A stretch of 64,000 nucleotides of DNA, from positions 23,537 through 87,536 of the forward strand of contig JAGYIT010000010.1 of assembly GCA_018402445.1 (NCBI GenBank), written 5' to 3'. The notes below the pieces were generated by a model. That model did no database searches. It was not told the origin of the DNA and saw nothing but the letters and a program-made list of their open reading frames with translations. The position numbers were made by a program, and so were the translations under genes. Source of the DNA: Akkermansiaceae bacterium (GTDB lineage: Bacteria; Verrucomicrobiota; Verrucomicrobiia; Verrucomicrobiales; Akkermansiaceae). Of this stretch, positions 39,567-54,130 are shown piece after piece. Position 1 is the first letter of the stretch; each line of letters starts with the position of its first letter.

Positions 39567-39576
<10 letters not shown>

Positions 39577-40973
39577 GAAGGAGCGCTTCCTAACCGATAC
39601 GCGTGCACCGCCGTCGGCTCGAAATGGATAGCGATACCTCCGGCTTGGGTTTTCTCATCTACGGTGCGCGTCGTAACTGTTAGTTCGCTCAGGCCGTTTT
39701 CCTTGCAGAAGTTGATCCATGGTTCCCATTCCCTTCTCTGTTTCGTAACACGGTCAGTGTATTTCACTTCGACTGCCTCAGTGACCCGCAGCCCCGGATC
39801 AAGAACAACCATATCCAGCTCCTGGTCTTTGCTTCCCAATTTCCAGCGGGCGTAGTGAAGATACTCGTCGATGCGATGAAAGCGTTGGGCGAAGACGGCG
39901 GTCTCCACAAGACTTCCAAGAGCAGGGTTTTGCTCGCCGACGAAGTTGAAAAGCCCGGTGCGGAGGGAAGGGTTCGTCAGCATGACTTTGTAAGCGCGGT
40001 CTCGCTGGAATCTGCCCGCTTTCTGATCCACACGCATTACGGGGCGGATCAGAAAAGCCGCTTCGAGGTATTCCATGTAACGCTTGAGGGTGTTCTTCGA
40101 AACGGCGGATTTCGAGGCGAGGGCATCGAGCGAAATCTCGTTTCCCGTGTTCAAAGCTAGCATGGTGAACAGGCGGTTCAGCTCCCGCACGTCGCTGATT
40201 CCGTACAGACTTGGTAGATCCCGGAGGAGGACTTTGTCGATGATGTCGGATCGCATGAAGCGCACGGCGTTTTGTTGGAGCGTCGTTGAAAGGGCAACTT
40301 CAGGATATCCTCCGAAGTTCAAGTATTGGAGAAACTCGCGGTTCAGTTCTTCGATATCTGTGGCAAACCATCCGTTTTCATCCTGCCCGACGAGGCTTCC
40401 CAGATCCCGGAGATTCAGAAATTCCGCAAAGGTCAAAGGAGGCAGAAGAAAGTCCGTGAACCTCCCCGCCCCCGACTCGCGGCTTCCCATGCCTAGAGCC
40501 GCATTCGCAGAGCCAGAAACAACAAAGCGGGTCTTCGTACCAGCATCGTGGAGCGACTTGAGATGCACCTCCCAATTCTTGAGATACTGGATTTCATCAA
40601 AAAATATGTAACAGGCTTTCGTTCTCCAATCCGTCCCTGTTACCTGTTTGAAGGAGTCCAGAATCTCAACCAAACTCGATCCCACGTAGATCGGATTATC
40701 GATCTGCGCGTAGAGAATCCGGTCACTGAAAACCCCACGTTCTAAAAGTGCCTGAATCGTGTGGTGGATGAGAAAGGTTTTCCCAACCCGCCTTGGCCCC
40801 AATAGGACGACCTCGCGGCGGGGTGATTCTGCCTCCACGAGTTTCATGAAATTGCCCAAAAAACCGCGTGGACTTGCGGATTTAAAGAACGGAGAAATGC
40901 CAAGAAGCCCTTCCCACCATGGATTTTCTTCCCACAGGGACTGCCCTAGCTGTTCTGGACTGATTTCAATCAC
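39567..40973 (-). CDS. AAA_14/DUF4143-type ATPase
   Basis: 468 residues from a GTG start at 40973. Walker [19 protein letters not shown], Walker [20 protein letters not shown], sensor-type [13 protein letters not shown], then an LTFAEFLNL box, a winged-helix region ([20 protein letters not shown]) and a C-terminal nuclease-like domain with [20 protein letters not shown] (DUF4143; E-V-K resembles a PD-(D/E)XK core). Proteins of this kind are widespread, often mobile, with poorly known roles. Its start codon directly follows a TTAAGAT/ATCTTAA palindrome. It may have been inserted after carB. Confidence 0.85.
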
Positions 40974-40974
40974 G

Positions 40975-40998
40975 TTAAGATTAATAGGCTGATCTTAA
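40975..40998. promoter_or_regulatory. TTAAGAT-N10-ATCTTAA inverted repeat at the ATPase start
   Basis: Perfect 7-bp arms 10 bases apart, one base upstream of the GTG. The surrounding 150 bp is AT-rich and contains AAAATAAGATCAAC and AAAATAAGGTCAGC as near direct repeats. Operator-like; no protein can be named. Confidence 0.4.
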
Positions 40999-41172
40999 GT
41001 GGAGTCAATCAAAATAAGATCAACGCATTGTCACTAAAGCTATATTGATAAAATAAGGTCAGCTAATTGCCTCTATTTTACCCTGCGCTGAGGCCCGCGC
41101 TCTGCTTGAAAGAAATATGAGGACATTATCTTGACATCTTTACATCTATAAAAAATGCATTATGATGCGTAT

Positions 41173-41451
41173 ATGAGAACCACCGTGCATCTGGATCGGG
41201 ATTTGGAGCAAGTTTTGCGCGAGACCGCAATACGCACCCACAAGCCTTTCAAGAAAGTGCTCAACGAAACCCTGCGCGCTGGCATCGAGCAGGCCACAGG
41301 GATGGGGCAGGCCGAACCATTTGTCCTGCGCTCGCGCCCCATGGGATTACGCGCCGGTTATGATCCCGCCGGTTTCAACCAATTGGCGGATGATCTCGAA
41401 GCGGAGGCGTTTTTGGAAACCACCCGCAAACTCATGGAGCGCGGCCGATGA
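41173..41451 (+). CDS. VapB-type antitoxin
   Basis: 92 residues. MRTTVHLDRDLEQVLRETA is a short RHH-like DNA-binding element, followed by a region ending LADDLEAEAFLETTRKLMER, the toxin-wrapping tail. It overlaps the VapC start by four bases (ATGA). An ATG at 41155 is possible, but MRTTVHLD is the typical beginning of this family. AT-rich DNA upstream suggests an autoregulated promoter. Confidence 0.82.
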   Translation: MRTTVHLDRDLEQVLRETAIRTHKPFKKVLNETLRAGIEQATGMGQAEPFVLRSRPMGLRAGYDPAGFNQLADDLEAEAFLETTRKLMERGR

Positions 41452-41873
41452 TCCTGCCGGATGCCAACCTGCTGCTCTACGCCTGCGACGAAAGCAGTCC
41501 CTTTCACGCCAAGGCGGCGGCATGGTGCGGGCGCATCATGAACGGCACCCAGCCGGTGATTCTGCTACCGACCGTGGTTTTCGCCTTCGTGAGGATTTCC
41601 ACTCATCCCCGGATCTTCACTGATCCGCTTTCCGTGGCCGAAGCATCCGCTCATGTGCGTTCGTGGCTGGGCCGGAGACAGGTGCGACTGCATGACATGT
41701 TGCCGGATGATGTGGAATCGACGCTTGGGCTGCTGGAATCCGCAGGAACGGCGGGAAACCTGACCACCGACGCCCAGATCGCCGCCGTCGCGCTCCGGCT
41801 CGATGCCGAAGTCTATACGGCGGATCTCGATTTCGGGCGGTTCGCGGGTGTGCGTTTCAGCAATCCGCTTTGA
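41448..41873 (+). CDS. vapC: PIN-domain toxin, VapC family
   Basis: 141 residues. Predicted ribonuclease. Acidic residues: Asp in MILPDANLLLYACDE, a helix TVVFAFVRISTHPRIFTDPL in the position of the usual Glu-containing motif (the Glu appears replaced here), Asp in LTTDAQIAAVAL and Asp residues in VYTADLDFGRFAG. The form with FVR..THPR.F..PL is a well-known VapC subgroup. Complete. Confidence 0.85.
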   Translation: MILPDANLLLYACDESSPFHAKAAAWCGRIMNGTQPVILLPTVVFAFVRISTHPRIFTDPLSVAEASAHVRSWLGRRQVRLHDMLPDDVESTLGLLESAGTAGNLTTDAQIAAVALRLDAEVYTADLDFGRFAGVRFSNPL

Positions 41874-41879
41874 GCCATC

Positions 41880-42833
41880 TCATTTCCTACCAGAAGTCCT
41901 CCGCCACCACGCCGCTAGGCAGCTTCCGATGATGCTGTGGAACACGGCGGAGATCGCGGCGGGGACGGGAGCCATCGCGATCTGCGGGAAATGCTTCGTC
42001 GCCAGCGCGGCTCCGAGGCCGCTGTTCTGCATGCCGACCTCGATGGAGACCGTGCGCCGCAGGGTTTCCGGACAGCCCGCGAGCTTCGCGAAAAAGTAGC
42101 CTAGGAAGAAACCGAAGCCGTGCAGCAGGAACACGGACAGGAACAGCGGCCCGGCGGCGGCGGCGATCCGTTCCTTTTCCCCCGCCACGATGCAGCCGAC
42201 GATCCCCACCACCACCAGCGCGCTCACCAGCGGCCCGAGCGAATCGATCCACGCCCGCGCCTTCCGCTCGTCCCTCATTTTCCCCAGCAGCGAATTCACC
42301 GCGATCCCCAGTAGCAGCGGCAGCAGCACCACGATGAGCATGGATTTGAAAAGCGCCCATGCGTCCACCGGCATCCACGCCCCGGCCAGCCAACGGGTGA
42401 GCCATGGCGTCGCAAATACGGCAGTCATAGTAGATGTCATCGTCATCAGCACGCTGAGCGGCACGTTCGCCCGCGCGAGATGGCAGATCACGTTCGACAC
42501 CGTCCCGCCCGGGCAGCAGGCGACGAGGATCAGGCCGAGCGCAAGGCCCGCCTCGAGCTGGAACGCCTTCGCCAAACCCCACCCCGCCAACGGCATGATC
42601 ACAAACTGCGCGAACACCCCCAGCGCAATGCGTTTCGGATCCTTGAGCACGGATGCGAAATCGGAGAACCGCAGGGTCAGCCCCATGCCGAGCATCACCA
42701 CACCGAGCGCGATGGAAATCCATGGCTTGAACCATCCCCAATCCTCCGGCCGCCCCCACGCCCACGCGCAACCCAACAGCAGCCACAGCGGGAAGCCCGC
42801 CGTCATCATCCCCGAAATTTTCGCCAAACGCAT
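41880..42833 (-). CDS. Bile acid:sodium symporter family (BASS) transporter
   Basis: 317 residues with about nine or ten hydrophobic helices. Diagnostic segments: SIALGVVMLGMGLTLRFSDF, VACCPGGTVSNVICHLARAN (the conserved cation-binding crossover) and VSIEVGMQNSGLGAALATKH. Family members carry bile acids, pantoate, pyruvate or sulfonates with sodium; Verrucomicrobia do not make bile acids, so a small organic acid is likelier. Isolated gene convergent with vapC (6-base gap). Confidence 0.9.
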   Translation of the reverse strand: MRLAKISGMMTAGFPLWLLLGCAWAWGRPEDWGWFKPWISIALGVVMLGMGLTLRFSDFASVLKDPKRIALGVFAQFVIMPLAGWGLAKAFQLEAGLALGLILVACCPGGTVSNVICHLARANVPLSVLMTMTSTMTAVFATPWLTRWLAGAWMPVDAWALFKSMLIVVLLPLLLGIAVNSLLGKMRDERKARAWIDSLGPLVSALVVVGIVGCIVAGEKERIAAAAGPLFLSVFLLHGFGFFLGYFFAKLAGCPETLRRTVSIEVGMQNSGLGAALATKHFPQIAMAPVPAAISAVFHSIIGSCLAAWWRRTSGRK

Positions 42834-42842
42834 CGCACACGA

Positions 42843-42981
42843 TCATTCCCGGAAACGGCGGGCCGTCGAGGAAATCAAACGCCTCGCCGATCTCAAGCTG
42901 CGCTGGGGCTACGGTTACTCCGCCCTCTCCATATGGGTCATGTTCCTCACCTGGATCAGCGAGCGAAGGAATGCGGGGTGA
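42843..42981 (+). pseudogene. Unrecognised small membrane-protein fragment
   Basis: The frame ends AVEEIKRLADLKLRWGYGYS then ALSIWVMFLTWISERRNAG: a charged helix and one membrane helix, convincingly protein-like, but with no ATG or nearby GTG start. It overlaps the start region of the BASS gene on the other strand. Either a truncated gene or a small protein with an unusual start. Family unknown. Confidence 0.35.
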
Positions 42982-42990
42982 GTCTTACCC

Positions 42991-43041
42991 GTGGCTGGGA
43001 CTTGCAGTCCCAGTCCGTCGTGGGGACATCCTGTCCCCACT
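42991..43041. repeat. Double hairpin CTGGGACTTGCAGTCCCAG / GTGGGGACATCCTGTCCCC
   Basis: Two adjacent near-perfect hairpins, 42994-43012 and 43020-43040, in the space between the fragment and the methyltransferase relic. Only one copy seen in this window. Confidence 0.6.
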
Positions 43042-43058
43042 TACTCTTCATCCGGCTC

Positions 43059-44055
43059 TCACCCCAACTTCTCCGCGATCGTCTCCCACTTCTTTTCCGT
43101 GGCCATCACGAAAAGGCACTTCCCGCCGCTCAATTCCTCCCAAAGCGCACCGATATCCCGGTCGTCCCGCGCATCGCTCCAGCGATCCTTGCCCTGTATT
43201 CCAACGCGAGGATGCGCCCGTCCTCCAGCTTGCGCTTGGAAGGTGTTCGTGGTGAAGGTCTTCGTTGTCGCGGCCCCCGCCGCCCTGGACTGCGGCAGCC
43301 TGCTGCCGCTTTCCGTGAAACAGCCTGCCTGCCCGCCGTAGCTTCAGCGAAGGCTGGGCTGTCAACGGCGGAGGACTGGAGGGGAACGCGCCGCCACATG
43401 CCAATGCCGTCCGGCTCGCAGCAGGCTGCATGGCCGAAAGCGGCAGCAGGCTGCCGCAGTCCAAAGCCTTCGCCGGGCTTGTGTAACCGCCCGCCACCCG
43501 CTCCGCCGTGCTCCCGCTCGCGATCTTCCCCCTCCATCTCCACAAGAATGAATTTCCGCGTCCCCCCGTCCTCCGCATTCTGCTTCAGCACCGCATGCCC
43601 CGTCGTCCCCGAGCCCGCGAACGAGTCCAAGATGATCGAGTTCTTGTCGGTGGAAAATTGGAGGATGCGCTGAATGAGACGACTGGGTTTCGGGGTAGAC
43701 AACGGGCATTCATCAATGATGCTGAGTAGTTCTGTCCGTGACTCCTGAGTGTGCTCGGTGTCGTCGTAGTGGAAAAAAGATCGCGGTACGACATCACCCA
43801 TCTCACTCAAGAATCTTTTGAGGCGTGGCATACGTGCCGCAACTTTCTCGGTCTCCATGTTTCTTTGTCACGAGCAAAGACCGCCACATACTCGTGATCA
43901 GTACTCAGATACTTTGCATCGTTAGCGGGTGATACTCGGCCTCCCTGCCGACGACGGAGCCGAGCCAGCGCTTGATCTCCGGGGAGTTGACCTTGTCGTT
44001 GTACACCCAGCCCTCGTTGCCGGTGTTGTAGGGTGGGTCGATGTAATCGGCATAC
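43059..44055 (-). pseudogene. Wreck of a Mod-like (type III) DNA methyltransferase interrupted by a REP element
   Basis: Pieces in order on the minus strand: YIDPPYNTGNEGWVYNDKVN then SPEIKRWLG near 44040-43950, containing the DPPY catalytic motif; then, after a deletion, STPKPSRLIQRILQFSTDK then NSIILDSFAGSGTTGHAVLK (43700-43600), the FxGxG SAM motif of a beta-class amino-methyltransferase; a shifted frame EGKIASGSTAERVAGGYTS; a REP element at 43284-43465; and an unassigned tail RWSDARDDRDIGALWEELSG then GKCLFVMATEKKW ending at 43059. It once methylated adenine for a restriction system; it is no longer functional. Confidence 0.72.
43284..43465. repeat. REP/BIME-like palindromic element, copy 2
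   Basis: Ends CTGGACTGCGGCAGCCTGC and GCAGGCTGCCGCAGTCCA. Hairpins CGGCAGC-ctg-CTGCCG at both ends. Same inner words as copy 1 (ATGCCGTCCGGCTCGCAGCA). Inserted in the methyltransferase relic. Confidence 0.75.
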
Positions 44056-44059
44056 ACCA

Positions 44060-44311
44060 TCACCAGCGGTATCCTTCGCGTTCCAGATCCATGGCGCTGC
44101 CCTCGATCATCGGCATGGATTCCAGAAATTTCCGCTGTTCCTTGAGCCATCCCGCCCAATCCAGTTTTTTCTCCTCTGGGGGTAGGATCGGCGTGATCTT
44201 GCAAACCTCTTCCCCCCGGCGCGTCAGGACGATCTCCCGCCCGCTCTCACGCACCTCGTTCACCAGCTTGGAAAGATGGTGCTGCGCCTCACGGATGGTA
44301 GCTGTCTTCAT
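44060..44311 (-). CDS. Phd/YefM-family antitoxin, apparently without its toxin
   Basis: 83 residues: MKTATIREAQHHLSKLVNEV, then RESGREIVLTRRGEEVCKI, a classic Phd/prevent-host-death DNA-binding fold, then a tail ending ESMPMIEGSAMDLEREGYRW. Partners of this type are usually followed at once by a PIN toxin beginning MVYAD. Here the next codons do read MVYAD but run straight into the methyltransferase DPPY fragment, so the toxin seems to have been replaced. An orphan antitoxin is inferred. Confidence 0.8.
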   Translation of the reverse strand: MKTATIREAQHHLSKLVNEVRESGREIVLTRRGEEVCKITPILPPEEKKLDWAGWLKEQRKFLESMPMIEGSAMDLEREGYRW

Positions 44312-44519
44312 TTGTCAACAACCATGACGCACATGATCTGGAAGTCAAGGAATCAGATGGCAGAGGGACAGGAATCAGGCGGAAAATCCTTAAGTAGTCT
44401 GCCCCCCCCGGTTTCCGAATCAAGGCAACCCCGCCCCCTTCCCGCGAATACGCCTTGTAAATTTTCTGGCGTAGAACCCGCACGTTATAGAAGGATGGCT
44501 GCGCAATCCAAAAAACCCT

Positions 44520-45812
44520 ATGCTCGTAACCTGCCCGCACTGCCAGACAGACCTCGCCGCGACCCCGGAACTCTTCGGTCAAACCGTGCAATGCCCGGCT
44601 TGCAAAGGTAAGCTCGAAGTCCCCTCCGCCGAGGTGAAAACCGAAACCTCCTCTACCCGCAGCCGCCCGCAGCGCTCCGGTTGGGACGAGCGCGACCACG
44701 CCAACGTCGATTTCATCAAGAGCCTTCTCATCGGAGCCGTGCTCACCGCCTGTTTCCTCGCCCTGCTGATCCCGTTCGTGGACACCGCGCTCGGCTCCAT
44801 CTTCCTGAAACGCGGCTGGGTGAACTTCGCGGAAACCTTTCTTTTCACATGGGGCATGACCATCCTCGTGATGAAATGGAAACAGAACAAGCGCCAAGAG
44901 CGCGCCGCGATGCTTGAGCTTTTCCCGGCCCGCCTCGGCAATGAAATCAACTGCGACAACGTCGGCGGCTTCATCGACAACATCTACAAGATCCCGCTCA
45001 CGATGCGCGACAGCCTCATCGTCAACCGCATCCGTAAGGCGCTGGAGCTTTTCGAAAACCGCACCGACAACGGCGAGGTCGCCGCCTTCCTCTCTACCCA
45101 GTCCGACATCGACGCGAACCGCTCCAGCGGCTCCTACTCGCTCCTGAAGGTTTTCCTCTGGGCCATCCCGATCCTGGGTTTCATCGGCACGGTCATGGGC
45201 CTCTCCACCGCAGTCGGCTCGTTGGCGATGGGCGACAACGCCGACCCCGAGGCGCTCAAGTCCTCCATCAACAGCCTCACCGGCGGCCTCGGCGTAGCCT
45301 TCGACACCACCTTGCTCGGCCTCATCCTCAGCCTGCTGATGAGCTTCCCGATGGCCGCCGTGCAGAAAAAGGAGGATGAGACCCTGACTCTCATCGACGC
45401 CTTCTGCACCGAGAAACTCCTGCCCAAGCTCAACGACAGCCGCAACCCCACCACCGGCGCGCTCCTCGAGCAGGCGGAGAGCATCCCGCAGCTCGTCGCC
45501 TCCCTCGCCCGCGCCCACGAGACGTTCCTGGTGAACCTCAACGGAGCCACCAAGATGCTCGGCGAGGCCGGCGAGACCATGAACAAGCGCCTCGCCACCC
45601 ACCAGGAAACCGTCGAGCAATCCTTCAAGGAATCCGTCGCGAAACTATCCGACACTGGCACCGAGGTCTTCATCCGCTCCCACGTCGAGCTCACCAAGAC
45701 CTTCGAGAAAATGGCCGTCGGCATCGACCTCCTCAACAATGCCCTGCGTGACATCGGCGAGAACCGCATCCCTGACAGCGCGAAAAAGAAACGCGGATTC
45801 TTCGGCCGCTAA
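44520..45812 (+). CDS. MotA/TolQ/ExbB-family proton channel with N-terminal zinc ribbon
   Basis: 430 residues. Residues 1-33 form a four-cysteine ribbon (TCPHCQTDL, QCPACKGKLEV). Hydrophobic segments follow: SLLIGAVLTACFLALLIPFV, a second near WVNFAETFLFTWGMTILVM, and the family pair FLWAIPILGFIGTVMGLS and GGLGVAFDTTLLGLILSLLM, the Thr-rich channel helices. A soluble C-terminal helical domain has SIPQLVASLARAHETFLVNL. It should form a pentameric ring around a dimer of TolR/MotB-like subunits, which the next two genes encode. Unlike TolQ or ExbB, it has a zinc ribbon and long C-terminal region. First gene of a tight trio (15- and 6-base gaps). Confidence 0.86.
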   Translation: MLVTCPHCQTDLAATPELFGQTVQCPACKGKLEVPSAEVKTETSSTRSRPQRSGWDERDHANVDFIKSLLIGAVLTACFLALLIPFVDTALGSIFLKRGWVNFAETFLFTWGMTILVMKWKQNKRQERAAMLELFPARLGNEINCDNVGGFIDNIYKIPLTMRDSLIVNRIRKALELFENRTDNGEVAAFLSTQSDIDANRSSGSYSLLKVFLWAIPILGFIGTVMGLSTAVGSLAMGDNADPEALKSSINSLTGGLGVAFDTTLLGLILSLLMSFPMAAVQKKEDETLTLIDAFCTEKLLPKLNDSRNPTTGALLEQAESIPQLVASLARAHETFLVNLNGATKMLGEAGETMNKRLATHQETVEQSFKESVAKLSDTGTEVFIRSHVELTKTFEKMAVGIDLLNNALRDIGENRIPDSAKKKRGFFGR

Positions 45813-45827
45813 CGCTTCCCAGAAACC

Positions 45828-46643
45828 TTGCCCAAACGCCGCAACAACTCCGGGGAGGCGGTCTCGCTCTTCCCTTTCATGAGCATTCTGGCATGTCTCA
45901 TCGGCATCCTCACGCTCATGATCAGCGTCTCCATGCAGATGAAGCAGATCGAAAACGAAGGCCGCACCGAGGAGGAAAAAGCCCTCGCCCTTGAGAACCG
46001 CGACCTGAAAAAACAAGCGGATAAGATCACCGAAACGATCCGCAAGGCAGAGGAGCAGCTGAAGAAGGAGAACTCCGCCTCCGCCACGCTGGCCGAGCTG
46101 AAAGACCGCAGAATCGTCCTCCGCGAAAAACTCGACGAACTCTCCAAGGCCGAGGATCTTGAGAAAGCCGACGCCGCCCTCCAGAAGACCATCGAGATGC
46201 TGCGCAAGGAGATCACCGCCCTGAAGACCGGCCGCCCGCCGCTGGTGAAACGGCAGGAGGAACTCACCAAGGAAATCGCCGCCCGCCAGAATCCGCCGAA
46301 AAAAGTAGAGTCCGTTGTCATCCGCCCCAGCGGCAGCGGCGTGCGTATGGCCGCCCGCATTTTCTTCGTCGAGTGCAACTCCACTGGCCTCGTTCTCATC
46401 GGCGAGGGCGGCGGCGAGACCACCGTCGCCACCGGAGCCATCCAGAACAGCCTGCCATACGCCTCTTTCCTGGAGGACGTGAAACGCACCCGCGATTCCA
46501 TGGTGCTTTTCCTCATCCGCAAGGAAGGAGCCAGCTCCTACGCATGGGCCGCAGGCATCGCGGAAAACAATTTCGAGGTCAGGACGGGCAAGCTCCCCGT
46601 ACCCAACGCCGGCAAGATCGACCTCTCACTTTTCAAGAACTGA
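45828..46643 (+). CDS. TolR/MotB-like subunit A, membrane Asp replaced by Ser
   Basis: 271 residues from a TTG start at 45828. A short basic tail (MPKRRNNSGEAVSL), one membrane helix FPFMSILACLIGILTLMISV, a long coiled coil (about 40-150; LEKADAALQKTIEMLRKEIT), and a beta-rich C-terminal domain (MAARIFFVECNSTGLVLIG, DSMVLFLIRKEGASSYAW). At residue 19, where TolR/ExbD/MotB have their proton-carrying Asp, it has Ser. No OmpA-like domain. The next gene has the same layout with Asp19. Role: partner in a proton-driven complex, likely reaching into the periplasm. Confidence 0.72.
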   Translation: MPKRRNNSGEAVSLFPFMSILACLIGILTLMISVSMQMKQIENEGRTEEEKALALENRDLKKQADKITETIRKAEEQLKKENSASATLAELKDRRIVLREKLDELSKAEDLEKADAALQKTIEMLRKEITALKTGRPPLVKRQEELTKEIAARQNPPKKVESVVIRPSGSGVRMAARIFFVECNSTGLVLIGEGGGETTVATGAIQNSLPYASFLEDVKRTRDSMVLFLIRKEGASSYAWAAGIAENNFEVRTGKLPVPNAGKIDLSLFKN

Positions 46644-46649
46644 CAAACC

Positions 46650-47759
46650 GTGGCCCGCAAGCGAACATCATCGGAAGGGGGGATCAGCCTCGACTCCCTC
46701 ATGGATGCCCTCACCAACGTGGTGGCCGTCCTCATCCTTGTGCTCGTCCTCGTCCAAGCGGATGTGAGCCAGAAAGTGCAGAAGTTTTTAGACGATCTCC
46801 AACCCGCCACCCCCGAGGAAGTGGCAGCAAATAAGAAGCTCGTCGATGAGCTAGAGCGCAAGCAGCGCGTCGCCGAAGCCCGCCTGCGGGAAAAACCCGC
46901 CACTCCCGAGGACATCGAGGAGGAGAAACGCCAGATCGCCCTGCTTGAGAAAAGCACGGAGGAAAACAAGGCCCTCCTCGCCGACCTCGACCAAGTGCGC
47001 GAGCTGGAAAAGAAAGTCCGCGCCGAGCGCGAGGCGGAGAACACAAAGACCGTCACCATCCAGAAAGAGATCGCGCGCCTCGAGGCCTTGCTCGACACCA
47101 TCCCATCCCCGGTGGCGGACACCACCACCGTCGTCAACATCCCCAACAGCCGACCCATCCCCACAAACGCGAGCACCTTTCATTCCATTGTTATCAGGAA
47201 CCGCGTCCACTTCATCGACACGCATGGCTTGCTCACCACATTCAGACGCGAGTTCGAGCGCAGGAAAGGCGACTGGCTGCACCAGCGCGTCAAGGTCAAG
47301 GGAAAGGCAGACCGCTTCATCTACGACGGGGCGAAGATCGCCGCCCATTTCAACAATTTCGACTGGGGGAACACGCGCGGCCAGAAGATCGAGATCGCGC
47401 AAAACCCCACAGCGTTCCACCTCTCCCTCGTAGTTCGCCCCGACCTGGAGAAAGGCGGCACGGCGCTAGAGGATCTCGCGAAGCCGGAAGGCGAGTTCGC
47501 GAAGGCGGTTCCCGTCATCCGGCAGACCCGAAATTCCGTCCTGCTTTATCGCGTCCATCCGGATTCCTTCCCTACCTACCTCGCCGCGCGGGAGCTCAGC
47601 GAAAAGGTGAACATCTCTGCGGGTTGGGACATTAATGGTTCGGCGGAGCTGCGTATCGCCGTTCCCGATCTCAGCGTCAGACGCCTCCAAGAACCCCCAC
47701 CCAGACCGCCGGGGGCCAGACCTCCCAGACCTCCGGCGCTCAAACCCAAGCTCGATTGA
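46650..47759 (+). CDS. TolR/MotB-like subunit B, with the membrane Asp
   Basis: 369 residues from a GTG start at 46650. MARKRTSSEGGISLDSLMDA begins a membrane helix LTNVVAVLILVLVLVQ, with Asp19 at the position of the TolR/MotB proton-binding Asp. A coiled coil follows (about 60-150), then a periplasmic alpha/beta domain (STFHSIVIRNRVHFIDTHGL, TAFHLSLVVRPDLEKGGTAL, NSVLLYRVHPDSFPTYLAAR), and a proline-rich end. The C-terminal domain is not an OmpA peptidoglycan-binding domain. Last gene of the trio; a hairpin terminator follows. Confidence 0.74.
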   Translation: MARKRTSSEGGISLDSLMDALTNVVAVLILVLVLVQADVSQKVQKFLDDLQPATPEEVAANKKLVDELERKQRVAEARLREKPATPEDIEEEKRQIALLEKSTEENKALLADLDQVRELEKKVRAEREAENTKTVTIQKEIARLEALLDTIPSPVADTTTVVNIPNSRPIPTNASTFHSIVIRNRVHFIDTHGLLTTFRREFERRKGDWLHQRVKVKGKADRFIYDGAKIAAHFNNFDWGNTRGQKIEIAQNPTAFHLSLVVRPDLEKGGTALEDLAKPEGEFAKAVPVIRQTRNSVLLYRVHPDSFPTYLAARELSEKVNISAGWDINGSAELRIAVPDLSVRRLQEPPPRPPGARPPRPPALKPKLD

Positions 47760-47786
47760 GCGAAAATTTCCCCACGCTCCCCACGA

Positions 47787-47823
47787 AAAGCCCTCCGCAA
47801 CCGTGAGGTCGCCGGAGGGCTTG
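47787..47823. terminator. Hairpin terminator between the trio and tRNA-Arg
   Basis: AAGCCCTCCG-15-CGGAGGGCTT. On the minus strand it ends GGGCTTTTCG, giving a short T-run for the tRNA gene; on the plus strand the tail is weak. Probably bidirectional. Confidence 0.65.
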
Positions 47824-47830
47824 AAGAAAG

Positions 47831-47907
47831 TGGTACACTCGAAGGGATTCGAACCCCTGACCCCCTGATTCGTAGTCAGGTGCTCTATCCAGCTGAGCTA
47901 CGAGTGC
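47831..47907 (-). tRNA. tRNA-Arg (ACG)
   Basis: Minus-strand cloverleaf: acceptor GCACTCG pairing with CGAGTGT (one G-U), D-stem GCTC/GAGC, anticodon stem CCTGA/TCAGG around loop CTACGAA (anticodon ACG), T-arm GGTTCGAATCC, discriminator A and encoded CCA. The ACG anticodon would be deaminated to ICG to read CGU/CGC/CGA. Confidence 0.95.
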
Positions 47908-47988
47908 GTTGCGGCATTAGCTGCGGGCGGGAAAAGAATCACGAACACCCCGGCCCTGTCAAGAACATCACCGATTTTTTACAAAATC

Positions 47989-48630
47989 TCACAAGCGGCT
48001 ATCCAAAGAAAATACCTGACCGGACGTGAACGGCAGTTTCTCCTCCAGAAACCGCACGAACCCGGCAGCGGCTTCCGGTGTATTGAACCCTCCCAAACAA
48101 TGCCCCTCCCGGATCACCGCCTTTCTCCTCTCGGACACCGCCTTCGTCATCGGCGTTTCCAAGAAACCGGGCAGCACCACATTGAAACGTAGGTTGTCCT
48201 TTCCATACCGCTCAGCCAGATCCCTTGCCAGCCCGTGCAAGCCGGCCTTCGCCGCCGCATACGCCGCCTGCCCCACCGCCGGACGCCGCGCTGCATAGCT
48301 CGACACGAAAACCACATGCCCACACCCTCTCGCCCGCATCCCCCGCACCGCCGCCATGGCACAACGAGCAGCCGCCCCGTAATTCACCGCCATCACCTCA
48401 TCCCATCCCTCCTCCTCCATCCGAAAAAGCGGCGCGTCCCGGATAATCCCCGCGCAGCACACCAGTAGATCACACGGCGTTTCATCGAAAAACCTCCCCA
48501 CCGCCCCATCCTCCCCCAAATCAAGATCCTTGCTCCCCAACGCCAATACCTCCCAGCCGTTTTCCGCAAATTCCCCGGCGATGGCCGTCCCCAGCCCGCC
48601 TGTCCCACCAGTGATGACCACGCGTTTCAA
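47989..48630 (-). CDS. Short-chain dehydrogenase/reductase
   Basis: 213 residues with a TTG start at 48630 (LKRVVITGGTGGLGTAIAGE); an in-frame GTG at 48645 is possible, and the frame runs further upstream without family likeness. Cofactor motif TGGTGGLG, LVCCAGI (NAG-like), catalytic Ser in HVVFVSSYAARR and YAAAK, and NVVLPGFLETPMTK. Similar to FabG-like reductases, but the substrate is unknown and no fatty-acid genes are near. It stands alone. Confidence 0.82.
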   Translation of the reverse strand: MKRVVITGGTGGLGTAIAGEFAENGWEVLALGSKDLDLGEDGAVGRFFDETPCDLLVCCAGIIRDAPLFRMEEEGWDEVMAVNYGAAARCAMAAVRGMRARGCGHVVFVSSYAARRPAVGQAAYAAAKAGLHGLARDLAERYGKDNLRFNVVLPGFLETPMTKAVSERRKAVIREGHCLGGFNTPEAAAGFVRFLEEKLPFTSGQVFSLDSRL

Positions 48631-48946
48631 CCCCGGAATCCTCACCCCCAACAAGCTGCGAATAAAGCCCCAATAACCTGTGATTTTCACCCAAAAACCG
48701 TTTCGGATCTCCGTATCACCCCGAGTTGAGACCCCACCGCCATCGGATGTGACCAGGTTATCCTTCGCATGGAACGCCCACCGCCAAACCGTGGAACCCT
48801 CGCTCGGACGACTTATCCACACGCTTATGATGAAGATCTTATGAGGTCAAAAAATAACATACTCATCATCCGGAAGGCACAACCCGCCCCATTGGCGCTT
48901 GGAAACGAGGGGCAAAGCTGCCATCTTTCCAAAAGTTCACCTACCC

Positions 48947-50440
48947 ATGCTGCCTGCCTTCAAACGCTTCCTCGTGCTGCTGTTCGTCTTTGCCTTGTTC
49001 TTCCTTCTCGTCATGGCGACGCGTACATGGCGCTCCGGAGGCGATCTCACCTCGCTGATCCCCTCTTTCCTGCGGAACACGGAAACAAACCGTCCTGAGG
49101 CCTTCACGCCCTCTAACGAGCCCGCGCTGAACCTCAGCGATGTGGAAATCATCTCCCGCCTCAACGAGGAATACGCCCGCCTCACGAGAGCTGTGGTGCC
49201 CTCCGTGGTTAGCATCGACACCGTAGGCGTCCGCACCGAGAGGCTCATGGATTTCTTCGGTCGTTCCAGTGTCCGTAGCTACCCCACACAGGGCCAAGGC
49301 TCCGGTGTCATCGTCAGCAAGGAAGGCCACATCATCACCAACCACCACGTCATCGCCGGGCAGAACAAGATCCGCATTACCCTGCACGGCGGAAAAACCT
49401 ACGGAGCCACCATGATCGGCGAGGATCCGCTTCTCGACATAGCCGTCATCAAGATCGACTCGAACGAGACCTTTGCACCGCTCAAGCTCGGCGATTCCTC
49501 GCAAGTTGAGGTCGGGCAACTTGTTTTCGCGGTGGGTAATCCCTTTGGCCTCGGCGAAACCGTCACCCAGGGCATCATCTCTGCCAAGGAACGCTCGCTC
49601 TCCGACAACCAGCGCGACCTTTTCCAAACCGATGCCGCCATCAACCCCGGCAACTCTGGCGGCCCGCTCGTTAATCTCACCGGCGAGATCATCGGCATCA
49701 ACGTCGCGATCTACAGCCCGGATCGCAACAACCCGGGCTTCCAAGGTGTCGGCTTCTCCATCCCATCCAACGAGGTGCGCGAGGCGCTGGAGCAGATTAT
49801 CCGCCGCGGACGCCCCATCCGCGGATACCTTGGCGTGCAGATGCGCGATCTCGACCCCGCCGTCCGCCTAGAGCTCGGCTACATGGATGGCAAAGGCAGC
49901 GCTGTCCTCGGCACCACACTTGGCGCGCCCGCCCATAAGGCTGGACTGAGGGCGGGTGACGTTATCGTTTCCTACAACGGAGAAATTATCAAGGACACCG
50001 CGCAACTCATTTCCCTCGTCCAGCGCTCCGGCATCGGTAAGCAGGTGAAAATAAGTATATGGAGGAAAGGCGAACTCATCGAACTGAAAGCCACCATTAG
50101 CGAGGCCACTTCACCTCCCGTTTATAGCCCGATCACGCCCGAAGAGAAAACGAAGGACAATCTCTTGATCCTCAGGAACATTGGCGTCGAAGTTCGCGAC
50201 CTCACCGCACCCGAGCGCGCCCTTGGATACACCGGCGTGCTTGTCACCAGCCTCCTTCCCGGAGGCAAGGCGGCGGGAATCCTCCAACCCGGCGATCTCA
50301 TCATCAGCCTAAACAACTTCCGCATCAGCAATACCAACGAATTTTATCTCCACCTCGCCGCCTCCGCCGCTGTGCAAGCCACCAGCCTCAGTGTGCTACG
50401 CTCCGGTTCCCCACTCCGCCTCAGCCTCCCAGCTCCTTGA
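48947..50440 (+). CDS. Periplasmic serine protease, HtrA/Deg family
   Basis: 497 residues from MLPAFKRFLVLLFVFALFFL, an N-terminal membrane anchor or uncleaved signal. Protease domain: His about 131 in ITNHHVIAGQN, Asp about 163 in LLDIAVIKID, Ser about 237 in INPGNSGGPLVN. Two PDZ domains follow: GYLGVQMRDLDPAVRLELG with GLRAGDVIVSYNGEIIKDTA, and GVEVRDLTAPERALGYTG with KAAGILQPGDLIISLNNFRI. Protein quality control in the cell envelope. Upstream ATGs are possible but spoil the signal sequence. Confidence 0.92.
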   Translation: MLPAFKRFLVLLFVFALFFLLVMATRTWRSGGDLTSLIPSFLRNTETNRPEAFTPSNEPALNLSDVEIISRLNEEYARLTRAVVPSVVSIDTVGVRTERLMDFFGRSSVRSYPTQGQGSGVIVSKEGHIITNHHVIAGQNKIRITLHGGKTYGATMIGEDPLLDIAVIKIDSNETFAPLKLGDSSQVEVGQLVFAVGNPFGLGETVTQGIISAKERSLSDNQRDLFQTDAAINPGNSGGPLVNLTGEIIGINVAIYSPDRNNPGFQGVGFSIPSNEVREALEQIIRRGRPIRGYLGVQMRDLDPAVRLELGYMDGKGSAVLGTTLGAPAHKAGLRAGDVIVSYNGEIIKDTAQLISLVQRSGIGKQVKISIWRKGELIELKATISEATSPPVYSPITPEEKTKDNLLILRNIGVEVRDLTAPERALGYTGVLVTSLLPGGKAAGILQPGDLIISLNNFRISNTNEFYLHLAASAAVQATSLSVLRSGSPLRLSLPAP

Positions 50441-50454
50441 TATCCATTTGGTTT

Positions 50455-50492
50455 TTTGAGATTTGAGATTTGAAATTTGAAATTTGAAACTT
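50455..50492 (+). repeat. TTTGAAATTTGA-type repeat in the leader of the OmpA gene
   Basis: GAGATTTGAGATTTGAAAT then TTGAAATTTGAAACTT immediately before ATG 50493, the same words and the same three-base spacing as before ilvH. It occupies the place of the ribosome-binding site; no purine-rich Shine-Dalgarno is seen. Confidence 0.7.
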
Positions 50493-51815
50493 ATGCGCCG
50501 CAACACCATTCCCTACTTCTTTCTTGCCTTGGCAGCGATCCTCGCCGCCGCTGCTCTCGCGCTGCTCATCATCCGTCCCGGATCCGAAAAGCCCGCGCCT
50601 CCAGCGCCCAAAGAACAGCCCGCCGAGGAAACCGCCGCCGAACCGGAGCCCATTGAGACCCTTGATGAACCCATGTCGCCCGGCACTCCCGAGGAAATAC
50701 TTGCGGATCTCGGCACCGGCCTTGCCGCCGCCGATCCCGCCGATCTTCTCGCCCGCATCGGAGAGGCTTTGGAAAATGGCGATATGACCGCCGTTTCCAA
50801 ACTCATCGGCAAACAAGCGCTTGGTGCGGAAAACCTCACCAAGCTCCAGGCTCTCGCCCTAGACGGAGCCCTCCGCATCCGCAAACCCGGCGGCGTCCGC
50901 GAGGTCGGAGAGCTGGAACTCAACCGCCTCGCACGCTGGGCCCTCGAGCTCGATGAACGCGAACCCGGCCGCGACCGCATCCTCTTCGATCTCCGTAATG
51001 AAAATGGCAAATGGATGATCGAGAAACTCACCCTCCCTCCCGCCCCCGGCGAGCCCATCCCCAAGGCCGTCCTCGCCGATTCGCTCGGTGTCGCCGACGC
51101 CTTCCTCCAGGCCGTCCTAAAGCAAGACTTCGACTTCGCCCGCGATTTCGTCGATCCCGCTACCGTATCCGACGCTAAGATCGCCGCACTCTGTATCCTT
51201 TTCGAGGAAAGTGAATACCGCATGCGCCCCACAAAACCCCTCCGCGCCATGTTCAACCGCGGTGACACCGTCGGCTACCTCGCCAACGTCGTCGCGGCGG
51301 ACGGAGCCGAGAGCGCACAGTTCGCCCTTAACCTCCGCCAACCCCCCGCACCCGCCAATTGGCGGGTCGCAGAGATCAACCTCGACGGCCTCCTCGCCGA
51401 TTACGCAAAGCGCATCGCAGGCGGCGACGTTTACTACTCGCCCCTCGTGAAAAACCCCGCTGGCGGCGAAACTCTTGCCCTCTATTTCGGCTTCGACGAG
51501 GACGTCATCAGTGACCGCACCCGCCGTCAGCTTGAGATCGTCACCGCCATGCTCAAGGGAGACCCCAACAAAAAAATCACCCTCAGCGGCCACACCGACT
51601 CTCTCGGCACCGACGACTACAACGATCGCCTCTCAGCCAACCGAGCCGCCATCGTCCGCGATTTCCTCGCCGCTGCCGGAGTCCACGCCGAACAGATTAT
51701 CACGCTCGCTAAAGGCTCCTCACAACCCCGCCGCCCCAATGTCACCGAAACCGGCAAGGACAACCCCGACGGCCGCCGCGCCAACCGCAGGACGGAGATT
51801 TACCTAGATTTCTGA
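50493..51815 (+). CDS. OmpA-family envelope protein
   Basis: 440 residues. N-terminal membrane helix MRRNTIPYFFLALAAILAAA; a Pro/Glu-rich linker (50590-50680); a middle domain of unknown type (NGDMTAVSKLIGKQALGAEN, DFARDFVDPATVSDAKIAAL); and a C-terminal OmpA/MotB domain with YFGFDEDVISDRTRRQLEIV, ITLSGHTDSLGTDDYNDRLS, ANRAAIVRDFLAAAGV and RRTEIYLDF, including the Asp and Arg that hold peptidoglycan. It links the envelope to the wall. It follows the Deg protease (52-base gap) and lies 2.7 kb from the proton-channel trio, whose subunits lack such a domain. Confidence 0.85.
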   Translation: MRRNTIPYFFLALAAILAAAALALLIIRPGSEKPAPPAPKEQPAEETAAEPEPIETLDEPMSPGTPEEILADLGTGLAAADPADLLARIGEALENGDMTAVSKLIGKQALGAENLTKLQALALDGALRIRKPGGVREVGELELNRLARWALELDEREPGRDRILFDLRNENGKWMIEKLTLPPAPGEPIPKAVLADSLGVADAFLQAVLKQDFDFARDFVDPATVSDAKIAALCILFEESEYRMRPTKPLRAMFNRGDTVGYLANVVAADGAESAQFALNLRQPPAPANWRVAEINLDGLLADYAKRIAGGDVYYSPLVKNPAGGETLALYFGFDEDVISDRTRRQLEIVTAMLKGDPNKKITLSGHTDSLGTDDYNDRLSANRAAIVRDFLAAAGVHAEQIITLAKGSSQPRRPNVTETGKDNPDGRRANRRTEIYLDF

Positions 51816-51914
51816 GAATTCGTGCGCGACCATATTTCCACCGGGATATGCGTTTCCCGATACTGCCGATAAGGTTGTTGATCACCGTCCTAACTCCCGC
51901 CTGCAAATGAGGTT

Positions 51915-52247
51915 TCAGAACGGCTTGCGGATGCCCAGATAGGCAGCGGCCGCGGCCGCGGCGAGGCAGAGCACGAAGACCATCCACGGAGCCAGCAACT
52001 TACGCTTGGCGAGAACGGGAGCCACGCCGATGAACAGCCAAAGGCCGAGCTTCACCATCCACCACTGCTGATCCATCGGCGGTTTTTTCAGCATGGCGAA
52101 GCCGATCAGGAGGATGAGGACGAGCGAGATGCCGTGCAGCATGGAGGCGGAGTTGCCCCTTGAGCCGGCGAGCAGGGACGCGCCGAGCGAGGCGAAAAGG
52201 GCGAAGGCGGCGGCGACGTGGAGGGTTTGCAGCAAAAGAAGATCCAT
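51915..52247 (-). CDS. Small integral membrane protein, unknown function
   Basis: 110 residues with four hydrophobic helices: LLLQTLHVAAAFALFASLGA, MLHGISLVLILLIGFAML, MVKLGLWLFIGVAPVLA and MVFVLCLAAAAAAAYLGI. The histidine in the first helix, the loop KKPPMDQQWWMVKL and the charged cytoplasmic turns resemble SirB/DUF-type four-helix proteins, possibly heme- or quinone-linked, but I cannot assign it. The start MDLLLLQTLH was chosen because upstream sequence is not hydrophobic. Confidence 0.7.
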   Translation of the reverse strand: MDLLLLQTLHVAAAFALFASLGASLLAGSRGNSASMLHGISLVLILLIGFAMLKKPPMDQQWWMVKLGLWLFIGVAPVLAKRKLLAPWMVFVLCLAAAAAAAYLGIRKPF

Positions 52248-52335
52248 TACGCGGCGGAGCTTCGGGGGGCGGCGGCGATGAATCAAGAGAAACCCGGAAA
52301 GTTGCGCGCCGCGCCGTCCGTATGAAACTCCGTTA

Positions 52336-52575
52336 ATGAAACGCAAACTCGCATGGATCGGAGCCATTCTCTCGGGATTGTATCTGCTAACAGTGGGGCC
52401 GATCCCGGATCCGATCCCTTTTATCGACGAGGCGGCCGCCCTCGCCATTTTTCTGAAATGCACCTCTTACCTAGGATTTGACCTTGGGAAATGGTTGCCC
52501 TTCATACGGAAAAAAGGCAAATCCAACACATCGCGCCGCGCCGAGAGTAAGAAAGGCGTGATCATCGACGTTTGA
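52336..52575 (+). CDS. Small protein with one membrane segment, unknown function
   Basis: 79 residues. MKRKLAWIGAILSGLYLLTV then GPIPDPIPFIDEAAALAIFL KCTSYLG and a basic tail (KKGKSNTSRRAESKKG). The GPIPD..PFIDE motif between hydrophobic segments is reminiscent of DUF1232/YkvA-like membrane proteins. Divergent from the gene at 52247 by 88 bases. Function unknown. Confidence 0.65.
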   Translation: MKRKLAWIGAILSGLYLLTVGPIPDPIPFIDEAAALAIFLKCTSYLGFDLGKWLPFIRKKGKSNTSRRAESKKGVIIDV

Positions 52576-52606
52576 GCAAACACCTCCCATAACCACCTAC
52601 CCTGAC

Positions 52607-54130
52607 ATGTCCCACGAAATCGACCTCGACTCTCGGCCCGCCGGAAAAGCGCTGCCCTGGTTTCTGACCATTACCGGCCTGCTCACCATCGGCGGCATGA
52701 TCGCCATGCCTTTCCTCGCCGGTGAGCCGGACGGGGAAAAAATGCCAGACATAGTGCGTTTCCTCGGCCGCTTCCATCCCGTCGTCCTTCATCTACCCAT
52801 CGGGATTTTCTCGCTGATCCTGCTCCAGGAGCTGCTGGGCATGTTTTCCCGTGAGAAAACGCGGCGCAGCGTGCTGCCGATCTTCATCGGCGCAGCGAGC
52901 GCGGTGGTCGCGGTGATTGCCGGTTTCCTGCTCTACCATGGCGGCGGATACGAGGGCAGCGAGCTGGCGGAAGACCACCTTTGGGGCGGGCTGGGCTTCG
53001 CCAGCGCCGCCGTGCTGACCATGATCGTGAAGGCGTGGAGCCTCGCCCCCACCGCATCGCTGGCTTTCTACCGTGTCCTGCTTTTCGGAAGCGTCGGCGT
53101 AATGACCTACGCCAGCCACAACGGTGCCTCCATGACCCACGGCACCGATTACCTCACGAAATACGCCCCCGACCCCATCCGCAAGGTGCTCGGGCTCGAG
53201 CCGAAACCGAAGAAAGAGGAGATCGAGGTCAAACCCCTTGAGGATCAGATCGTCTATGCGGACATTGTGCAGCCTATCCTCAACAAACGCTGCGTGGAGT
53301 GCCACAAGGAAGGGAAATCGAAAGGCCGCCTGCGCATGGACACCTACGAGATGCTTGTGAAAGGCGGCAAGGAAGGCGCGGCGATCGAGCCCGGCAGCGC
53401 GGAGGACAGCAACATCGTCTATCGCATCGAGCTGCCCGAGGACGACGAGGAGCACATGCCGCCCGAGGGCAAACCCGGCTTTGAGGAACCCGAGCTGGTG
53501 GTCCTGAAATGGTGGCTCGACGAAGGCGGCGATCCGGCGAAAACCGCCGGTGAGCTGAACCTGACCGATGAGATCCGCGCGGCGATCGGTAAGCTGGATC
53601 TCGGCATCACGCTAATCGAGACGGCCATAAAAGAGGTCGTCTCCGACCTACCCTCGGATGACCTCCGCGCCACCGTCGCGAAGCTCGGTGCGGAATTTCC
53701 CGGCGGCCTGACCTTCGAGTCGCAATCCACGGCGAACCTCACCTTCACCGGCGTTTCCATGCGGAAAAACCTCAACGACGAGCTTTTCGCGAAGCTCACG
53801 TCCGTGATCCCGAACATGGTCGCGGTCGATCTCTCCGCCACCTCGGTGACGGATGCGTCCATCGCCCTGCTTGCCTCCGCCCCGAATCTGCGCATGGTGC
53901 GCCTTTCCGAGACGGAAATCACCGACGCCTCGATGGACACATTGGCGCAGCTCACGAAACTCGAATCCGTGAACCTCTACGGCACCAAGGTCACCGACGC
54001 GGGCGTTAAGAAACTAAGCGCCCTGCCGAACCTGAAGCGCCTTTACCTCTGGCAGACCGCAGTCACGCCGGAGGCCATCGCGGAGCTGAAAAAGGCTTTG
54101 CCGGAGCTGGAGATCGTGACGGGAGTTTGA
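52607..54130 (+). CDS. Planctomycete-type membrane cytochrome c with leucine-rich repeats
   Basis: 507 residues. An N-terminal DUF2231-like membrane domain with about five helices (FHPVVLHLPIGIFSLILLQE; a second near GFLLYHGGGYEGSELAEDH); a periplasmic PSCyt1-type heme domain with CVECH in PILNKRCVECHKEGKS (one heme) and the family DSNIVYRIELPEDDEEHMPP; then LRR-like repeats about 390-500 (MVAVDLSATSVTDASIALLA, LRMVRLSETEITDASMDTLA, LESVNLYGTKVTDAGVKKLS). Likely an envelope electron carrier or sensor. Typical of Planctomycetes/Verrucomicrobia gene families linked to polysaccharide use; the partner is unknown. Confidence 0.85.
   Translation: MSHEIDLDSRPAGKALPWFLTITGLLTIGGMIAMPFLAGEPDGEKMPDIVRFLGRFHPVVLHLPIGIFSLILLQELLGMFSREKTRRSVLPIFIGAASAVVAVIAGFLLYHGGGYEGSELAEDHLWGGLGFASAAVLTMIVKAWSLAPTASLAFYRVLLFGSVGVMTYASHNGASMTHGTDYLTKYAPDPIRKVLGLEPKPKKEEIEVKPLEDQIVYADIVQPILNKRCVECHKEGKSKGRLRMDTYEMLVKGGKEGAAIEPGSAEDSNIVYRIELPEDDEEHMPPEGKPGFEEPELVVLKWWLDEGGDPAKTAGELNLTDEIRAAIGKLDLGITLIETAIKEVVSDLPSDDLRATVAKLGAEFPGGLTFESQSTANLTFTGVSMRKNLNDELFAKLTSVIPNMVAVDLSATSVTDASIALLASAPNLRMVRLSETEITDASMDTLAQLTKLESVNLYGTKVTDAGVKKLSALPNLKRLYLWQTAVTPEAIAELKKALPELEIVTGV

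Follow-up and report, generated by a model that had tools for sequence, protein, structure and literature searches.

A three-gene TolQ/TolR-like system of Akkermansiaceae whose channel protein and two unlike partner helices appear to switch as a matched set

We describe a three-gene system in a 64,000-nucleotide stretch of DNA from an Akkermansiaceae bacterium (GenBank assembly GCA_018402445.1, contig JAGYIT010000010.1), hereafter the window. The genes all lie on the plus strand. The first, g1 (44520-45812), encodes a MotA/TolQ/ExbB-like channel protein of 430 residues with an N-terminal CxxC...CxxC pattern and a long C-terminal tail; it is followed by two TolR-like single-span proteins, g2 (45828-46643; 271 residues, TTG start) and g3 (46650-47759; 369 residues, GTG start). 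The gaps of 15 and 6 bases between these open reading frames (ORFs) bear out the tight packing described in a previous, sequence-only reading of this DNA. At the ion-site position g2 carries a serine and g3 an aspartate. Related systems occur in two main forms, and our comparisons suggest that g1, the g2 helix and the g3 helix have been swapped between these forms as one block, apart from the periplasmic domains. We think it reasonably probable that the trio is one inner-membrane ion-driven motor, with a g1 pentamer around one g2 (Ser) and one g3 (Asp).

The two TolR-like proteins are homologous to each other, judging by their sequence profiles. An hhalign comparison of the g2 and g3 families gives a probability of 99.3 (E 1.9e-20) and places g2 Ser19 (AGC, 45882..45884, in PFMSILAC) opposite g3 Asp19 (46704..46706, in SLMDALTN), as the sequence-only reading had aligned them from their starts. 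That reading went too far in counting a single Asp, since g3 has a second one at residue 15 (46692..46694), one helix turn before Asp19, which it had overlooked. The aspartate in the membrane helix that is typical of ExbD and TolR is thus present in g3 and absent from g2. Asp19 of g3, the presumed ion-binding residue, is invariant in 7-row and 40-row alignments. Among the matches listed for homologues of the window's type, residue 19 is Ser in 120 of 120 for g2 (of 369 matches) and Asp in 119 of 120 for g3 (of 327), the remaining g3 being truncated before the site. One locus, L130, has an in-frame stop at g3 codon 16, yet Asp15 and Asp19 are visible around it.

What we call the Ser form combines g2 Ser19 with g3 Asp15 and Asp19 and with g1 Thr263. 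The sister form, or Asp form, combines g2 Asp19 with g3 Val15 and Asp19 and with g1 Ala263; L259 is an example. Among named species, Haloferula rosea (L062) has the Ser form and Brevifollis gellanilyticus (L105) the Asp form. Within the window's clade, therefore, g3 residue 15 is Asp if g2 has Ser and Val if g2 has Asp. Across 150 distinct systems we find 84 of the Ser/Asp15 state (82 in the window's clade and 2 in an outlying clade) and 43 of the Asp/Val15 state, together with Asp/Glu15 (7), Cys/Asp15 (3), Asn/Ser15 (3) and 10 in which the g3 residue was unread. The two main forms are mixed in none of the 150. This set omits nine long-branched or odd rows (L174, L178, L182, L183, L185, L192, L195, L202 and L204), some of them exceptions to the rule, which are counted in the wider residue tallies below. 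Whether the pair is always one Ser and one Asp, as the sequence-only reading asked, has a divided answer: the pairing is fixed in the window's type, but the sister form, 43 of the 150 systems, has Asp in g2. The same is true of several deeper types, so a first TolR-like protein with Asp, which had been named as a sign against the proposed asymmetry, does exist.

How often have the forms been exchanged? On the g1 tree of 150 rows, the Asp/Val form branches from within the Ser form, with a single apparent reversion (L186), and the three label changes in all are too few for a test. A 112-row g1 tree that includes the outlying types has five changes and four pairs (p 0.25); it omits twelve named rows (L111, L115, L128, L129, L134, L196-L201 and L205) as well as rows that duplicate others over part of g1. 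Trees of the periplasmic domains were built from 118 rows with g2 Ser/Asp and g3 Asp/Val in which both domains were readable, with the window excluded and the membrane helices removed. On these the Ser/Asp label changes 8 times (g2 tree) and 11 times (g3 tree), with at least 6 and at least 7 changes, respectively, on well-supported branches. In the independent pairs on such branches g3 residue 15 switches oppositely with g2 residue 19 in 6 of 6 (g2 tree, p 0.031) and in 7 of 7 (g3 tree, p 0.016), two tests that overlap in loci.

The individual parts of the system side with different histories. We compared 1512 quartets drawn from 25 loci of the periplasmic-domain tree: the columns that group loci by form, against those supporting the other grouping, number 40.5 v 11.1 in g1, 10.3 v 0.1 in the g2 helix and 10.4 v 0.2 in the g3 helix. 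The balance is reversed in the periplasmic domains of g2 (6.3 v 15.1) and g3 (7.9 v 43.2). Both forms can also be found at the same chromosomal place. In seven aligned loci of this kind, with nine pairs compared, upstream DNA is 79-90% identical across forms and 86-91% within them, while the g2 helices are 60-64% identical across and 91-95% within, and the g3 helices 59-64% across and 91-95% within.

Adjoining genes may of course be inherited jointly with no functional coupling, and the g1 tree, in which the window-clade Asp form sits within the Ser form with a single apparent return, is what such linkage could produce. We nevertheless regard mere linkage as having only a slight chance of being the explanation, because the g2 periplasmic domain, whose coding sequence separates those of the two helices, does not follow the Ser/Asp label and breaks from it at least 6 times, while both helices follow it. 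It is this intervening domain that leads us to treat g1 and the two helices as one matched set.

Within g1 the form is marked by residue 263, which lies beside the pore threonine Thr264 (263-264 at 45306..45311): all 84 Ser-form systems have Thr there, and all 43 Asp-form systems have Ala. Arg98 (83/84) is replaced by His (43/43) in the Asp form, Glu105 (70/84) by Asn (43/43) and Val211 (79/84) by Ala (43/43). Two observations weigh against a wider application of this pattern: Thr263 also accompanies a g2 Asp in all 10 systems of the Asp/Glu15 type, and three ordinary ExbB-like proteins encoded in the genome that contains the window have it too.

That both helices switch together with g1 speaks for one shared pore, in which the g2 and g3 helices would stand side by side. 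In an alternative arrangement, g1 would build two distinct motors, each around a homodimer, of g2 in one and of g3 in the other, a possibility that has been considered for AglR with AglQ or AglS; the part of PMC9389320 that treats these proteins leaves hetero- and homodimers undecided. In its favour, the predicted long helices of g2 (48-153) and g3 (55-150) are similar in length. We consider this arrangement improbable: a g2 homodimer with Ser19 would have no acid at its ion site, the two helices switch jointly in every independent pair, and every uncut locus among the 80 named ones has both g2 and g3.

These 80 loci are the best of 566 fetched with g1. All three genes are found in 74 of them, with g2 and g3 directly downstream of g1 in 72, adjoining g1 as an inverted pair in one (L134, 985-3113, where Ser19, Asp15 and Asp19 are all retained) and split in one (L112); the other six (L103, L111, L121, L128, L129 and L133) are cut by a contig end before g3. 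The constant co-occurrence that the sequence-only reading had put up for checking is therefore supported, and a first TolR-like protein without the second, which it had named as contrary evidence, was not seen at any uncut locus. In a set of 20 loci of the same family the genes stand in a row in 19, and the exception is the genome of L112. There, g1 and g2 (L055, 5800-9300) and g3 (L296, 1498-2604) lie on separate contigs, and each half adjoins a similar transposase-like sequence. This genome had suggested that two-gene systems carry an Asp g2 and three-gene systems a Ser g2, an idea that rested on the seeming absence of g3 and was dropped when a whole-genome search found the gene (Val15, Asp19) on the other contig. 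Four of 76 further loci (L212, L213, L216 and L243) gave neither g2 nor g3, their sequence ending soon after g1. The presence of the system is patchy, with a g1 match at E 1e-60 or better in 178 of 386 genomes of the order.

No widely conserved neighbour gene was found in 112 loci. The commonest neighbours in the window's clade are present in only 11, and the idea that a neighbour might tell the function of the trio was therefore rejected. By eye, they are genes for riboflavin synthesis and for NusB-like and FtsY-like proteins, all from a single locus group, and they mark a shared chromosomal place.

We propose the following mechanism. A predicted pentamer of the TolQ/ExbB-like g1 would enclose single copies of g2 and g3. 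Asp19 of g3 would be the site at which periplasmic ions bind; Asp15, a helix turn nearer the cytoplasm, would act as a relay, and the uncharged Ser19 of g2 would take the mirror position. As the shaft turns against the pentamer it would pass five loaded canonical-site positions, compared with ten in a two-Asp motor, and if only Asp19 is a site this means five ions per turn. The long helices, presumably paired coiled coils, would carry the motion to the periplasmic TolR-like heads, while the putative zinc ribbon and tail of g1 may face a cytoplasmic partner. As to its job in the cell, our best guess is that it transmits force through the envelope in the manner of Tol or Ton. More tentatively, and with somewhat less than even confidence, we suggest a naturally occurring rotary motor of 5:1:1 composition with a single canonical ion site; over evolution it would have alternated, at one and the same locus, with a two-site form, the pore, shaft helices and acids being exchanged as a matched set under unchanged periplasmic heads.

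The same residues may be read differently if g2 stands beside the motor, as a regulator or a plug that conducts no ions, and the ordinary dimer of the motor is made of g3 alone. Serine cannot fill the proton role of aspartate, and across the wider family g2 residue 19 varies (S, D, C, A, N) while g3 has Asp wherever it was read, both of which would suit such a role. We give this reading little credence, because, in same-form pairs, conservation of the g2 helix (87-100%) exceeds that of the remainder of g2 (71-87%), and because g2 has Asp19 in 43 systems, where it comes together with changes in g1 and g3.

It is also conceivable that the second acid was moved rather than lost, so that Asp15 and Asp19 of g3 carry ions in turn. 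The motor would then still use ten ions per turn and would be asymmetric in place only. In the window's clade each g2:g3 pair that was read does have two acids at positions 15 and 19 (82 Ser-form and 43 Asp-form systems). Residue 15, however, lies in the direction of the cytoplasm along the helix, and at such a place a relay seems just as plausible as a second site. Some outlying loci also depart from the count of two: L181, L184 and L194, with g2 Asn and g3 Ser15, have one acid, and others have three, namely Asp with Glu15 (10 loci) or Asp with Asp15 (L182 and L183). We consider a moved acid rather unlikely, although it deserves to be taken seriously.

A strict rule of two acids per pair is accordingly rejected outside the window's clade, and the Ser/Asp complementarity is limited to that clade because the outlying types combine their acids differently. 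Some of these still have two acids, position 15 being Asn, Gly or Leu (L202, L192 and five of L196-L201). A query with the deeper-branch g2 of L166 gave 75 matches, of which 72 have Ser (70 by pattern and 2 by eye), one has Asp (P0305) and two start beyond the site; the named members are Kiritimatiellae, Phycisphaera and Planctomycetes bacterium Pan216. In a distant clade (L176-L181, L184, L193 and L194) a tolQ-like gene is accompanied by two short tolR-like genes, and the acid position of g2 is occupied by Cys, Ser, Ala or Asn. The three members that also have no acid at g3 residue 15 are possibly true single-acid motors.

Turning to the individual proteins, g1 belongs to the MotA_ExbB family (PF01618, 44.7 bits, cut-off 22.9). 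Four cysteines at its N-terminus (Cys5, Cys8, Cys25 and Cys28; 44520..44627) are invariant in a 9-row g1 alignment, in keeping with the zinc ribbon that the sequence-only reading had recognized, but all Pfam zinc-ribbon models score under their cut-offs on g1, and we therefore call the ribbon putative. Both pore threonines, Thr224 (GFIGTV, 45189..45191) and Thr264, are invariant in the same alignment and in the 84/84 and 43/43 rows of the two forms. Thr224 aligns with a Thr of three ExbB-like proteins from the same genome; we infer that it is equivalent to E. coli ExbB Thr148, and Thr264 to ExbB Thr181. In three loci (L123, L212 and L213) the g1 frame extends to about 900 residues, with the zinc ribbon and channel motif within the first 270 and an unexplained long C-terminal part.

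Could the trio be a Zorya-like phage-defence motor? Among NCBIfam and PADLOC models, those of ZorA match g1 best (30.8 bits and 40.3 bits, respectively). The NCBIfam score is nevertheless far below the NCBIfam cut-offs of 100 and more, g2 and g3 have no OmpA domain, and no neighbour is widely conserved with the trio, although no search was made with models of ZorC, ZorD or ZorE. A role of this kind is very improbable.

The g2 membrane helix covers residues 15-43 (45870..45956) in an AlphaFold2 model with a mean predicted local distance difference test (pLDDT) score of 75, and its periplasmic domain, predicted to be TolR-like, residues 172-259 (46341..46604). The g3 model has a mean pLDDT of 82.2, and its periplasmic domain, with a predicted TolR-like core, spans residues 163-330 (47136..47639). 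TolR is the top fold match of both proteins after re-ranking; in Foldseek without re-ranking it has E 0.011 for g2 and is outside the top 50 for g3. These models suggest that the periplasmic domains belong to a known kind. No Pfam family scores above its cut-off for g2 or g3. The ExbD/TolR model PF02472 does not match either at E up to 1, though it has 9 matches elsewhere in the genome, nor does the OmpA-like model PF00691, in agreement with the sequence-only reading that neither periplasmic domain is OmpA-like. PDB sequence searches with g2 and g3 return chiefly coiled-coil or helical proteins; the one with g1 gave 8vvn, an entry that bears the name MotA/TolQ/ExbB protein and is ZorA.

The surroundings of the trio were examined with Pfam for 10 neighbouring ORFs in 39567-54130, two of which were also scanned with NCBIfam. 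An OmpA-family protein (50484-51815; PF00691, 66.1 bits, cut-off 27.2) and a Deg-like protease (48899-50440) are both present, as had been noted before; the trypsin and PDZ domains of the latter exceed their Pfam cut-offs, and the Do-family model TIGR02037 scores 378.3 bits, below its cut-off of 416.2. A terminator closing the trio, claimed by the same reading, was not recovered: a scan of the plus strand, covering loops of up to 8 bases, found no terminator-like site. The hairpin at about 47790-47822, between g3 and a tRNA-Arg gene and downstream of the latter, has its T-run on the minus strand and is for this reason probably the terminator of tRNA-Arg. Just upstream of the trio (43130-44204) are minus-strand pieces resembling a broken DNA methylase gene (PF01555, only the model end matched), and at 41155-41873 there is a small two-gene unit with a PIN domain protein and a toxin-antitoxin-like layout. 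The genome also has ordinary ExbB and ExbD genes, with 9 PF01618 matches (g1 included) and 9 PF02472 matches. Within the same genome (L001, L006, L285, L286), two adjoining MotA_ExbB matches on one contig form a further double set, and a second contig with two ExbD matches next to one ExbB-like match holds another.

The trio offers a natural test of the number of ions that such a motor needs per turn, and if the one-site 5:1:1 reading is true, it would be a working motor with five rather than ten. Matched one-site and two-site versions of what seems to be the same motor occur, in some genomes at the same locus, and the co-varying residues can be named, which makes the question directly testable. 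The coupled switch also speaks, at the level of sequence, for the ability of two unlike TolR-like proteins to share one pore, a point that is unsettled for AglQ and AglS. Full-text searches of open-access papers found neither the Ser/Asp asymmetry nor the coupled switch.

Several known systems invite comparison. In ExbB-ExbD and TolQ-TolR the central subunits are all of one kind, with two essential aspartates, and there is, to our knowledge, neither a long coiled coil nor a zinc ribbon, whereas the window's trio has two kinds of central subunit, long predicted helices and a putative zinc ribbon. ZorA is a channel protein with a long cytoplasmic tail and ZorB has a peptidoglycan-binding OmpA-like domain; a long tail is common to ZorA and g1, but the OmpA-like domain is absent from g2 and g3. 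Shared with the ExbB-ExbD and TolQ-TolR motors (PMC12215075) are the channel family and the two pore threonines (in g1); the periplasmic fold of g2 and g3 may be TolR-like as well.

The gene plan of the trio is already in print. Paired heterologous tolR-like genes beside tolQ have been published for the same bacterial group in a section of PMC12204202, which describes a tolQ-tolR-tolR-vWA cluster of the PVC (Planctomycetes-Verrucomicrobia-Chlamydiae) bacteria with, like the trio, one tolQ-like and two different tolR-like genes. That cluster has adjacent TPR and vWA genes, whereas neither kind of gene had a Pfam match among the 10 scanned ORFs around the trio. The section makes no mention of a missing acid in one partner or of a coupled switch; in its second family, vWA proteins on TolR-like helices, there is one aspartate per monomer. 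By our own reading, the outlying loci L169-L175 may resemble its first family more closely.

The Myxococcus gliding motor AglR-AglQ-AglS is, in the account that PMC9389320 gives of it, like the trio in having one MotA-like and two MotB-like proteins. The same account states that five ions per turn would demand an entirely new model. Both AglQ and AglS have the conserved aspartate (PMC9389320), whereas g2 of the window has Ser19, and it is the sister form (43 of 150 systems) that matches the gliding motor in this respect.

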